DNA of 9,764 nucleotides from assembly GCA_001799195.1 (NCBI GenBank), contig MGSU01000140.1, positions 1-9,764 on the forward strand, written 5' to 3'. This DNA is from Deltaproteobacteria bacterium RIFOXYA12_FULL_61_11 (GTDB lineage Bacteria; Bdellovibrionota_F; JAHFAK01; YA12-FULL-61-11). How positions within the stretch are numbered: position 1 is the stretch's first letter; each line of letters starts with the position of its first letter. Both the position numbers and the translations under genes were made by a program. Below the pieces are notes generated by a model. It saw only the letters and a program-made list of their open reading frames with translations, was not told the DNA's origin and did not search any database. Shown here one piece after another: positions 812 through 8,272 of the stretch.

Positions 812-1404
812 ATGCCATCGCTTCCTGATGACCTCGTAAAGCCACCGGCCCCCGACGTACCAGCCTACTCTAACAAACCCTACTCAAAAGACATCGCCCG
901 CCTTCGACTCGCGCTTCCATCTGCCCCCGAGCAGCAAAAAATCGCCGATTGTCTGACTTCGCTGGACGAGCTGATCGTCGCCGAGAGTCAGAAACTCAAA
1001 GTGCTCAAGGCCCACAAACAAGGGCTCATGCAACAGCTCTTCCCCCGCGAAGGCGAAACCCGGCCGCGGCTACGCTTTCCTGAATTCCAAAACGCCGGGG
1101 AGTGGGAGGAAACCCGTCTGGGGCGATTGGGAGAACTTTTCAGCTTTTCCAATCTGACAGATACCAGAAGCAAGTCGCGGGAGATCTCGGTGCTACGATT
1201 AATTCGATCAACGGAGGCCAACTGTTGAAATACGAGTTCTTCGTTCCGAAGCCGCCCGAACAACAACGCATCGCCTCGTGCCTGAGCAGCCTCGACGCCC
1301 TGATCACTGCCGAAACTCAGAAGCTCGAAGCCCTCAAGACCCACAAGAAAGGCCTGATGCAGCAGCTATTCCCCTCCGGAGGAGGGGTGGCAGGCGAAGC
1401 CTGA
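812..1404 (+). pseudogene. hsdS: Type I restriction-modification specificity subunit, decayed (TRDs lost, frameshifted)
   Basis: HsdS normally has two target-recognition domains, each followed by a conserved coiled-coil helix block, and directs HsdM/HsdR to a split DNA site. Both blocks remain. Block 1 (926-1045) encodes PEQQKIADCLTSLDELIVAE...GLMQQLFP and block 2 (1255-1374) encodes PEQQRIASCLSSLDALITAE...GLMQQLFP. They are 40 codons each and identical at about 30. The linker REGETRPRLRFPEFQNAGEWEE after block 1 is the usual entry to the second TRD. The blocks start only 329 bases apart, which is too short for a TRD and not a multiple of three, so they lie in different frames. The frame from 812 stops at 1228, while the tail (SDRYQKQVAGDLGATINSIN, then block 2) is read in another frame to 1404. 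TRD1 and the N-terminus are absent, and no hsdM or hsdR is in the window. It cannot make a working subunit. Confidence 0.88.
926..1374 (+). repeat. Pair of 120-base direct repeats: HsdS conserved helix blocks
   Basis: The segments 926-1045 and 1255-1374 encode the same 40-residue coiled-coil block beginning at PEQQ and ending at QQLFP. They are the two structural repeats found in one HsdS chain, not recent duplicates, since they differ at about ten residues. They serve as landmarks showing that the second target-recognition domain between them has largely been removed. Confidence 0.85.
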
Positions 1405-1893
1405 CGGGGTGGTTACATGACAGAACGAGACATGAAAGCAACCACCCCCCGCCTACGGCGTACCCCTCCGGAGGAGGGGAATAACATCGTGAAGCCTGAC
1501 AGGGGGGGGAAATCACGGCACACCCAAAATTACCTGTCGTTGCCATTCAATCCCCAGTTGAAAGAAAGGGCGAAGGCGCTGCGTCGGGCAGGTAATTTAT
1601 CCGAAGTGCTGCTCTGGAATCAGCTCAAAAGGGGGCAGTTCGAGGGGCTCGATTTCGACCGACAAAAGATCATTGGCAATTACATTGTCGATTTTTATTG
1701 TGCCGAGAAAAACGCTGTCATCGAGGTGGATGGCAGCAGCCACGACGACAAAGCGGAATACGATGCGCAACGCGATGCTTTTTTGACGGGCCTTGGTCTA
1801 CATGTAATCCACATCCTGGACAAGGATGTAAAGCAGGACATAGCCGCTGTCATGGATCTCTTGATGCAGCAGCTTTTCTCGCCTCCGGAGGAG
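1355..1893 (+). repeat. Direct repeat of the hsdS 3' end flanking the DUF559 cassette
   Basis: Copy A begins at 1355 and copy B at 1862, an offset of 507 bases. They share TGATGCAGCAGCT, then nearly the same TTC-rich bases, then CCTCCGGAGGAGG; the differences are one substitution, a small change after TTC and a two-base indel. Copy A is the end of the hsdS remnant (LMQQLFPSGGG). Copy B lies inside the DUF559 frame (LMQQLFSPPEEVEA, stop) directly before the rhuM-like ATG. The arrangement looks like an insertion that duplicated, or brought along, the hsdS tail. Confidence 0.75.
1369..1481. repeat. Palindromic inverted-repeat pair at the 5' end of the DUF559 gene
   Basis: The left arm (1369-1414) starts with TTCCCCTCCGGAGGAGGGGT and ends with GGGGTGGTT. 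The right arm (1440-1481) is its inverse: AACCACCCC first, then a near-perfect reverse copy of the opening palindrome. The arms flank 25 bases that include the ATGs at 1417 and 1432. A third partial copy follows, because GAAGCCTGAC from the left arm (1396-1405) recurs at 1491-1500 and is again followed by a G-run. Each arm has its own internal palindrome (CCTCCGGAGG). This resembles small dispersed palindromic elements often found beside DUF559 genes. Genome copy number cannot be judged from one window. Confidence 0.8.
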
Positions 1894-1905
1894 GTTGAAG
1901 CATGA
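1417..1905 (+). CDS. DUF559 family endonuclease-like protein (Vsr-related PD-(D/E)XK fold)
   Basis: The product is 162 residues from ATG 1417. The DUF559 domain spans about residues 42-148: LPFNPQLKERAKALRRAGNL, SEVLLWNQLKRGQF, DFDRQKIIGNYIVDFYC, VIEVDGSSHDDKAEYDAQRD, and GLHVIHILDKDV. Candidate catalytic residues of this Vsr/nickase-like fold are intact: E63, D92 and the E103-x-D105 pair followed by H109. Residues before about 35 are encoded by palindromic repeat DNA (PPEEGNNIVKPDRGGK). The start could therefore be ATG 1417, ATG 1432, or GTG 1489, the last with GGAGGAGGGG nine bases upstream, supplied by the palindrome. The C-terminus (LMQQLFSPPEEVEA) is not DUF559 but an HsdS tail. The stop overlaps the next ATG (ATGA). 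Such genes often sit in restriction operons; the biological role is not established. Codon use is less GC-biased than in the flanking host genes. Confidence 0.85.
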   Translation: MTERDMKATTPRLRRTPPEEGNNIVKPDRGGKSRHTQNYLSLPFNPQLKERAKALRRAGNLSEVLLWNQLKRGQFEGLDFDRQKIIGNYIVDFYCAEKNAVIEVDGSSHDDKAEYDAQRDAFLTGLGLHVIHILDKDVKQDIAAVMDLLMQQLFSPPEEVEA

Positions 1906-2054
1906 ATGGCCTCATCCTCTACACAACCGAGGACGGCCCAAGCCAAATCAAACTGCGGGCAAAGGATCAAACCGAACACCCTGCAGGCGGGCTTCAAAAG
2001 AGAACTGGGGCTTTCTTTGCTGCCTCCAGATTGAATTGGCAGGTGCTGAGCTGA
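1902..2054 (+). pseudogene. rhuM: RhuM-like (virulence RhuM family) gene, N-terminal remnant only
   Basis: The ATG at 1902 overlaps the preceding stop (ATGA), which indicates translational coupling. The first 24 residues, MNGLILYTTEDGPSQIKLRA and then KDQT, match the conserved start of RhuM-family proteins, which commonly sit in type I restriction operons after hsdS. Similarity then stops: the frame continues TEHPAGGLQKRTGAFFAASR and ends at 2054 after 50 codons, while intact RhuM proteins are several hundred residues long. The rest was evidently deleted where the accessory locus joins the host gene at 2054. The last base of its stop codon is the A of that gene's ATG. The family call rests on a short but characteristic N-terminus. 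Confidence 0.65.
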
Positions 2055-7202: not shown

Positions 7203-7469
7203 ATGACCACGACACTCAGCACCTACTTCTCCAAGATCGGGAGGAAAGGCGGGAGGAAGAGCAGGAGGAAGCTATCTTCTTCCGAAGCAAGGGAGATGGT
7301 GAAGGTCCGGGAGGCCAGGAAGATGTACAGAAAATTCCATACCCAGTGTTTCTGGTCCTTCGATCCCGCGTACCTCATCACCTCGAAGGACCTCGACTGG
7401 GTAGTGCAACAATTAAAACGACACGGCGACCGGAGCGCATGGGAGGCAGGGGAAAAATTATGCCGTTGA
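7203..7469 (+). CDS. Small basic protein paired with AbiEii-type nucleotidyltransferase, putative antitoxin
   Basis: The product is 88 residues from ATG 7203. The N-terminus MTTTLSTYFSKIGRKGGRKS is rich in lysine and arginine with a glycine-rich turn. It is followed by a helix (LSSSEAREMVKVREARKMYR) and a conserved-looking centre TQCFWSFDPAYLITSKDLDW, then VVQQLKRHGDRSAWEAGEKL. I recognise this arrangement as a conserved small protein encoded just upstream of AbiEii-family nucleotidyltransferases, where it is the likely antitoxin. It differs from the well-studied AbiEi proteins, which are larger with a winged helix. Its basic N-terminus could bind nucleic acid. The last ten bases overlap the start of the next gene, so the two are translated together. 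There is no ribosome site upstream, which agrees with the leaderless promoter. Function is inferred from context. Confidence 0.7.
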   Translation: MTTTLSTYFSKIGRKGGRKSRRKLSSSEAREMVKVREARKMYRKFHTQCFWSFDPAYLITSKDLDWVVQQLKRHGDRSAWEAGEKLCR

Positions 7470-8272
7470 CGGAATTCCAGGCAGACCTTGCCAGGCTCCT
7501 TGCGACCAACCGAACACCGGAGAGCTACCTCGCCGGAGGAGCAGCCATCAACCTCGAACCCAACACCCTTCGCTACAGCAACGACCTGGATTTTTTCAAT
7601 GATTCGGTTGAACGCACGAGCACAACCTACGCACACGACGTCAACCTGCTGGAGTTGCATGGGTACACGGTGACCTTGCGCATCTCCCAACCTGGCTATC
7701 TCAGCGCTCAGGTCAGCAAAGCCGACCAGTCCACGAGAATAGACTGGGCCCATGATTCGGCCTGGCGCTTCCTGCCCACCCTTTCTCACGATCGGTACGG
7801 CTATCTCCTGCACCCCATCGATCTGGCCATCAATAAGGTCCTAGCCCTGGCCGGCAGGGATGAGCCCAGGGATTTCCTGGATACCCTTTGTGTCCACGAC
7901 ACCATCCTGTCGCTGGGGGCACTGTGCTGGGCCGGCGCTGGCAAAGACCCTGGTTTTTCGCCACATTCCTTGCTGGAACTGTTGAAACGTCGCGGAAAAT
8001 ACCATCAATCCGATTTCGATCGCCTGCGACTCGCTGCTACCGTCTCCCTGACGGAACTGAAGACCAGGTGGCTGGTCGCTTTGGCCTCAGCCGAACGCTT
8101 TATCAACTCCCGCCCCATGAACGAGATCGGCTGCCTTTATTATTCACTATCCGGGAAATGCTTCGTCACCCCCTCGCCGGAGGACCGACCAGAAGACCTC
8201 GCCTTGCATTACGGAAAGCCCGGAGGCGTGCTGCCCCAGGTAGGAGATGTTCCCGGCCCCTCCCTCGACTGA
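7460..8272 (+). CDS. AbiEii/AbiGii-type nucleotidyltransferase, putative toxin
   Basis: The product is 270 residues from ATG 7460, with AGGGGA eight bases upstream; the frame is open further upstream but overlaps the small gene, so this start is preferred. The polymerase-beta-type nucleotidyltransferase signature is present: YLAGGAAINL (23-32) followed by LRYSNDLDFFND (37-48), where D42 and D44 are the metal-binding acids. A second mark lies at KVLALAGRDEPRDFLDTL (126-143), with K126, R137, D138 and D141 matching the conserved AbiEii motif. AbiEii toxins are thought to transfer nucleotides to RNA and halt growth, with the partner gene acting as a type IV antitoxin; abortive phage infection is the described role for lactococcal AbiE. 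The C-terminal half (165-270) is helical and unassigned. Key residues appear intact, so the protein is probably active. Confidence 0.82.
   Translation: MPLTEFQADLARLLATNRTPESYLAGGAAINLEPNTLRYSNDLDFFNDSVERTSTTYAHDVNLLELHGYTVTLRISQPGYLSAQVSKADQSTRIDWAHDSAWRFLPTLSHDRYGYLLHPIDLAINKVLALAGRDEPRDFLDTLCVHDTILSLGALCWAGAGKDPGFSPHSLLELLKRRGKYHQSDFDRLRLAATVSLTELKTRWLVALASAERFINSRPMNEIGCLYYSLSGKCFVTPSPEDRPEDLALHYGKPGGVLPQVGDVPGPSLD

Follow-up and report, generated by a model that had tools for sequence, protein, structure and literature searches.

A nuclease gene and paired palindromes in the last codons of hsdS

In the 9,764-nt stretch of DNA analysed here (the window), a DUF559 endonuclease gene sits at the 3′ end of the specificity-subunit gene hsdS, has palindromes around its start and closes on what looks like the end of HsdS itself. 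This raises the question of how such an arrangement arose, and whether the nuclease gene and the palindromes belong together. The window hsdS is a remnant, read in two overlapping plus-strand frames that each match PF01420. Positions 812–1228 (22.5 bits; from the list of open reading frames) hold the part with the central conserved region, with LMQQLFP near 1026–1050, and positions 1102–1404 (30.9 bits) hold the C-terminal part, ending in LMQQLFPSGGGVAGEA and a stop. Plus-strand DNA encoding LMQQLF is found at 1355–1371 (TGATGCAGCAGCTATTC; direct repeat D3) and, offset by 507 bases, at 1862–1878 (TGATGCAGCAGCTTTTC), the two being identical at 16 of 17 positions; a third copy of this type lies at 1026–1042 in the central region of hsdS. 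The element junction, CAGCTA^TTCCCC (caret, boundary), falls at 1369 and is common to ten loci. The left repeat extends from there to 1414 (plus strand). It was recognized by a triplex-motif detector, is carried as the same unit by relatives and encodes the final residues of the 1102–1404 frame, with like tails in nine other loci. A short core (1415–1439, plus strand) containing the ATG of the DUF559 frame (1417), 12 nt past the HsdS stop, separates it from a second repeat in inverted orientation at 1440–1482 (minus strand; inverted repeat I1, also found by the triplex detector). The two repeats together form a MITE-like unit. A decayed third piece at 1491–1521 (plus strand; direct repeat D4), 74% identical to 1396–1426, gave a third match of the same kind.

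The DUF559 gene (1417–1905, plus strand) encodes 162 amino acids, of which residues 48–153 (Pfam core 1558–1875) match PF04480 with 104.8 bits, above the curated cut-off of 20.6. Its 3′ end is fused to an HsdS tail and reads LMQQLFSPPEEVEA before the stop; this duplicate of the hsdS terminus (1862–1905, plus strand) has the natural length seen in the tails of uninterrupted plasmid systems (L090–L097). The TGA of the frame (1903–1905) overlaps an ATG at 1902–1904, which opens a rhuM 5′ fragment (1902–2054, plus strand). The first 24 amino acids of this fragment are identical at 21 positions to the RhuM (PF13310) found in the same position in L007, and unrelated sequence follows. The palindromes CCCCTCCGGAGGAGGGG occur at 1371–1387 and 1463–1479, with a weaker one at 1880–1896. 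The initial annotation had drawn attention to the duplicated LMQQLF DNA, its 507-base offset, the tail, the stop–start overlap and the palindromes, and all of these are present. We considered the 1880–1896 palindrome as a right-hand repeat and rejected it: it is the DNA encoding SPPEEV of the HsdS tail, and has no third arm. The host genome (a 4.64-Mb assembly, ~87% complete) contains one DUF559 gene and one repeat pair of the window type. Elsewhere in the window, at 7203–8272, a small open reading frame (7203–7469) is followed by an AbiEii-like nucleotidyltransferase gene (7466–8269; PF08843 just below cut-off), and the two look like a type IV toxin–antitoxin pair.

The palindromes resemble intrastrand triplex repeats

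In the repeat unit, a pyrimidine arm is followed by its purine complement and, beyond a spacer, by a third arm (GGGGTGG) in mirror image to the purine one; in the left repeat (1369–1414) the purine arm and the third arm are separated by a short hairpin. When the third arm is asked to mirror the purine arm with at most 2 mismatches in 8 triads, both 1369–1414 and 1440–1482 show the layout of pyrimidine arm, purine arm and mirrored third arm. We therefore identify the palindromes as putative potential intrastrand triplex (PIT) repeats, with the layout of the PIT, BoxC and TM_ECO repeats surveyed by Holder et al. (2015; PMC4666352). The ITxF search of that survey used loops of 1–6 nt. Because the second spacer of the window repeats is ~16 nt long, exceeding that range, and can form a hairpin of its own, they are probably a long-spacer PIT variant rather than a strict member. 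A simple role as terminator or attenuator was set aside once the third arm of the triplex layout and the inverted arrangement of the pair had been recognized.

Knowledge of PIT/BoxC repeats goes back to the 1990s. Neisseria and cyanobacteria carry them in abundance, and in E. coli they have been associated with genome instability (PMC4666352). The same survey described inverted pairs of two repeat types and instability at PIT sites, and found no mobility-providing genes near TM_ECO sites.

Triplex repeats accompany DUF559 genes and follow their lineages

The larger finding, absent from the initial annotation, concerns the palindromes, which prove to be repeats cognate to the DUF559 nuclease. 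With a detector purpose-written for the triplex layout, 50 of 55 distinct DUF559 genes were found to have a PIT motif no more than 650 bp away; the corresponding figures were 11 of 115 for control segments of those loci and 3 of 275 for shuffles. An unselected sample from genomes of many families gave a PIT repeat near 18 of 21 DUF559 genes, the triplex detector finding none near the other three, whereas of 30 genes for HNH nucleases in those 59 genomes only 1 had a repeat (P about 3e-9). The more alike two DUF559 proteins were, the more alike were their repeats (Mantel r 0.79, 0/2000 permutations), and the correlation persisted when each cluster was reduced to one member (21 cluster representatives; r 0.37, 2/2000 permutations). 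Within one DUF559 lineage the repeat sequence is the same across phyla, and between lineages it differs: the GGAGGGGT repeat is common to members of the window clade in Proteobacteria, Cyanobacteria and Bacteroidota, GGGGGAG characterizes one alphaproteobacterial clade, and GGGAGAGGG types are found in others. Similar repeats beside related DUF559 genes could also come from common descent of the locus.

The pairing extends to whole genomes. Among 242 cyanobacterial genomes, the repeat was present in all four with the window DUF559 clade and in 6 of the 238 others (P 1.5e-6), and a reversed control pattern was found in none; the six were thus repeat-positive with no match at E 1e-30 to that clade, the only one searched. 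One cyanobacterial genome (G981) holds 36 copies of a GGAGGGG-type repeat, but a search at E 1e-30 gave no match to the DUF559 clade cognate to it; the enzyme may have been lost, the genome may be incomplete or another mobiliser may be at work.

In E. coli MG1655, the DUF559 gene ycjD (1351407–1351760) lies 168 bp from TM_ECO no. 9 (1351204–1351239), one of 18 TM_ECO sites listed for the 4.64-Mb genome (Table 1 of PMC4666352). By simple arithmetic, the chance of such closeness with 18 sites in 4.64 Mb is about 0.003. The final ~45 nt of E. coli ycjD are repeated once downstream (L099, 2780–3000; L100, 1780–2050), with a partial repeat between the two copies and the full TM_ECO site past the second, a layout that resembles the duplicated gene end at hsdS. 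In Neisseria gonorrhoeae, the DUF559 gene NGO0050, whose product has a solved structure (3hrl), has triplex-type repeats beside it; six matches follow the gene (L098, 2380–3340). Our literature search, in which coverage of subscription papers was limited, returned no paper in which DUF559 is linked to triplex or to inverted repeats.

The hsdS end as an insertion site

A scan of bacterial genomes yielded 29 relatives of the window locus, and later searches added more. The left junction, (C/T)TA^TTCCCCT, is identical in ten loci of several classes and is preceded by CAGCAG in nine of them. In relatives that lack DUF559, hsdS ends in LMQQLFP plus seven residues, or near that. Plasmid systems pairing hsdS with an AAA-ATPase gene (L090–L097) served as empty sites, and an overlap between the hsdS TGA and the ATPase-gene ATG was observed in seven of the eight. 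These uninterrupted relatives bear out the proposal that the ancestral order was hsdS and then the next gene, joined by an ATGA overlap. The specific junction that had been proposed, hsdS directly followed by rhuM, gave no match in a pattern search of 369 gammaproteobacterial genomes; it is the plasmid ATPase systems that show the natural tail. The recurrence of the left junction in nine loci besides the window, together with ATGA tails of the same length in systems that lack DUF559, rules out chance as the source of the window arrangement. The exact hsdS-plus-repeat pattern had no match in viral contigs, which contained one DUF559 relative, and plasmid and phage records contained only distant ones.

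The suggestion that a usable HsdS tail lies on both sides of DUF559 held up. On the left, the repeat itself supplies a look-alike tail and stop (LFPSVGGVAGEA or LFPSVGGVPEGRGG in most loci), and in most hsdS-site copies DUF559 starts 0–12 nt downstream of that stop. On the right, the window, L007, L009 and L010 keep a natural-length HsdS tail with the ATGA overlap 3′ of DUF559. The idea that the boundary always falls at LMQQLF survived for the left side, which lies at the same codon in ten loci. The duplicated LMQQLF tail is present in only part of the hsdS-site copies; the remaining copies retain their own DUF559 C terminus (FLSxHPxF in L005, L008 and L014). No target duplication of constant length was found: a 17-nt LMQQLF duplication occurs at some hsdS loci, and none is obvious at other insertion sites. 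Because the fused tail has one form common to its carriers, we suggest that it reflects one ancestral event spread by transfer, with no fresh duplication at each insertion. Repeats flank both sides of DUF559 in many other loci, and the right-hand repeat is absent at the window, L005, L007, L008 and L009; the window unit may be stuck as it stands.

How often this site has been entered is a separate matter. A single ancestral insertion, after which an hsdS–DUF559–rhuM cassette spread by transfer of restriction loci with no continuing site preference, would explain the left junction being identical in all ten loci and the same fused downstream tail in the window, L007, L009 and L010, and restriction-modification loci are mobile. 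Several observations sit less easily with it. DUF559 DNA identity between loci (69–98%) is unlinked to hsdS-end identity (49–81%; r −0.11), although hsdS recombination could explain part of this. In three loci (L004, L006 and L086) the second LxxQLF copy has a repeat unit too, and the downstream genes vary among rhuM types and an AAA ATPase. Among 300 Burkholderiales genomes, moreover, three had the hsdS-end repeat with DUF559 and one (G232) had it without a close DUF559 gene. The G232 repeat is a 45-nt solo copy, in frame at the same hsdS codons and with a different loop, and removing it from the hsdS tail leaves the natural seven residues. We regard the single-cassette account of this site as plausible, if somewhat short of probable. 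It is compatible with a general element model, and the hsdS pattern may reflect either repeated insertion or the spread of one cassette plus hsdS recombination.

Dispersed derivatives and other insertion sites

The genome of a Laspinema (G070) contains 67 repeat copies, dozens of them without the gene. Twelve of 20 sampled arrays hold the DUF559 5′ flank, the start codon and up to ~12 codons, and in most of these the retained piece runs straight into the 3′ flank of the DUF559 gene. Alignment scores for the arrays were 49–85, against a shuffled maximum of at most 27. The 12 arrays are internal-deletion derivatives of the DUF559 element, standing to it as MITEs do to an autonomous transposon. 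Most of the G070 arrays (L101–L120) are enclosed by another dispersed sequence, whose ends resemble GTTTCATTCTCCC... and GCTTTACAGCCC..., so the triplex repeats of this genome appear to lie inside a larger repeat family or to belong to it.

Whole repeat–DUF559–repeat units also lie in frame within coding genes, namely HsdR (L018 and L027), an R-M-like open reading frame (L021) and the radical-SAM gene YgiQ (L025; compared with E. coli YgiQ). The two HsdR units, from one Bacteroidetes and one Brocadiaceae genome, share one loop ahead of the nucleotide-binding motif, as judged against intact HsdR relatives (L122 and L123), and differ in both DUF559 lineage and repeats. In a plasmid-borne HsdR of Cyanobacterium sp. 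HL-69 (L121), the same loop holds a low-complexity insert of ~75 residues without DUF559. Because the loop also accepts unrelated inserts, its use may reflect tolerance, not targeting. Units of DUF559 plus palindromes were found at hsdM/hsdS junctions and between genes as well. These sites run counter to the original idea of a unit defined by targeting and restoring hsdS ends, and we dropped the notion of an hsdS-specific element. In three cyanobacterial loci (L129, L130 and L131), DUF559 of the window clade lies at hsdM–hsdS junctions or is fused in frame ahead of hsdM, which suggests that the liking of this clade for type I R-M operons extends beyond hsdS ends.

Type I R-M operons commonly host DUF559 genes of the window clade: the window, L004–L010, L017, L018, L086 and L129–L131 all lie within such operons, as do six of seven unselected matches to the clade (3/3 in Burkholderiales, 3/4 in cyanobacteria). 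One might accordingly take DUF559 for a Vsr-like nuclease that resides in type I loci and serves repair or defence, with the PIT repeats as separate parasites or recombination hot spots that gather next to it. The Caulobacter DUF559 protein VsrA offers a precedent, as it works in concert with a methyltransferase and has been linked to mismatch repair, SOS induction and DNA damage signalling, not to mobility (PMC12907096). However, most of the other repeat-bearing DUF559 genes lie away from type I R-M genes, DUF559 genes of one lineage share their repeat sequence even between phyla, HNH genes of the same genomes are nearly free of repeats, and fragments of DUF559 gene ends are present inside dispersed repeats. 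We consider a purely resident nuclease very unlikely.

The enzyme is predicted to have a Vsr-like fold

An AlphaFold (AF2) model of the window DUF559 protein (pLDDT 86, pTM 0.81) matched, in order, 3hrl (Neisseria NGO0050), the catalytic domain of I-Bth0305I and Vsr in model-based Foldseek searches. The I-Bth0305I match had a Foldseek E of 1.5e-4 and a TM score of 0.77 on the target, and the profile comparison gave E 0.004. The residues of an ExDGxxH motif are invariant. The protein is thus predicted to be a Vsr/EDxHD-type endonuclease with a PD-(D/E)XK-type fold, not an HUH/Y1 transposase, and the modelled fold supports both the homing-endonuclease relationship and the Vsr kinship that had been proposed for DUF559. 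A dN/dS of 0.05–0.09 against L007, L009 and L010 places the window protein under purifying selection.

This fold invites a further explanation, in which DUF559 is a free-standing homing endonuclease that cuts an empty hsdS, hsdR or hsdM site; repair would then insert a copy of it, and the repeats would be no more than flanking homology. The closeness to I-Bth0305I, the recurrent use of the hsdS end and the presence of two unrelated units in one HsdR loop all fit such behaviour. Against it, the unit occupies varied sites, often loops that tolerate insertion, neither an intron nor an intein was seen, and both the non-autonomous dispersed copies and the dozens of repeats that lack the gene in a single genome are transposon-like rather than homing-like. 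We think homing in this sense unlikely.

A model for a nuclease with triplex ends

We consider it likely that the DUF559 gene (1417–1905) and the palindromes (1369–1482) are one mobile unit, a cognate nuclease with triplex ends. Cognate pairs like this are carried by many bacteria, with repeat sequence following nuclease lineage. Under this model, the full unit would be the autonomous element, and gene-less repeat pairs and single repeats would be non-autonomous derivatives of it. The window copy occupies the final hsdS codons, where the left repeat provides HsdS with a replacement tail and stop, DUF559 starts 12 nt after the new stop, and the former HsdS tail ends the DUF559 frame, which preserves the coupling to rhuM. 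The nuclease may nick or cut the repeats in their folded form, or G/C-rich target DNA that resembles them (for example TTCCC at the hsdS end), after which repair would copy the unit into the target. The hsdS end would then be one favoured or tolerated site, and insertions within coding genes could survive as in-frame linkers because the repeats often have no stops in the frame that is read.

On balance, we favour the broader proposal that DUF559 nucleases are the missing mobilisers of PIT/BoxC repeats and represent a new class of mobile element, tolerated in frame in hsdS, hsdR and ygiQ, whose Vsr/EDxHD-type enzyme would recognize the triplex-forming ends cognate to it and mobilize both its own unit and copies without the gene. 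PIT/BoxC repeats occur in hundreds of bacteria, and the DUF559 family is the best candidate yet for the spreader of these long-unexplained triplex repeats. If true, this would give a role to a large family of unknown function and define a type of mobile element whose enzyme belongs to none of the known transposase classes. The presence of a cognate nuclease, ycjD, in E. coli K-12 makes the origin of PIT/BoxC repeats directly testable.

Comparison with known systems

The window repeats share with PIT, BoxC and TM_ECO repeats the pyrimidine, purine and reverse-Hoogsteen third arms, the inverted pairs, often of two types, and a spread over E. coli, cyanobacteria and Neisseria, with TM_ECO no. 9 lying beside ycjD. 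They differ in the longer, hairpin-capable second spacer (~16 nt) and in being tied to a nuclease gene.

REP–RAYT systems are similar in that short palindromes in inverted pairs are matched by lineage with one flanked chromosomal enzyme gene and also occur as non-autonomous copies. RAYTs are HUH/Y1 transposases, whereas DUF559 is predicted to be a PD-(D/E)XK/EDxHD-type nuclease of unrelated fold. The EDxHD homing endonuclease I-Bth0305I resembles DUF559 in catalytic-domain fold and sequence profile; the DUF559 unit differs in having no intron or intein, in being bounded by triplex repeats and in occupying many sites. Vsr and VsrA are alike in fold, VsrA being itself a member of the DUF559 family and a trigger of DNA damage signalling, but Vsr works in repair and has not been described with cognate repeats, and the likeness of the window protein to it is one of fold only.

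Rickettsia palindromic elements are palindromic repeats that are likewise inserted in frame within protein-coding genes. To our knowledge no mobilising enzyme has been linked to them, and their sequence is unlike that of the DUF559-associated repeats. The internal-deletion derivatives in 12 of the 20 G070 arrays, finally, are what an insertion sequence with its MITEs displays.
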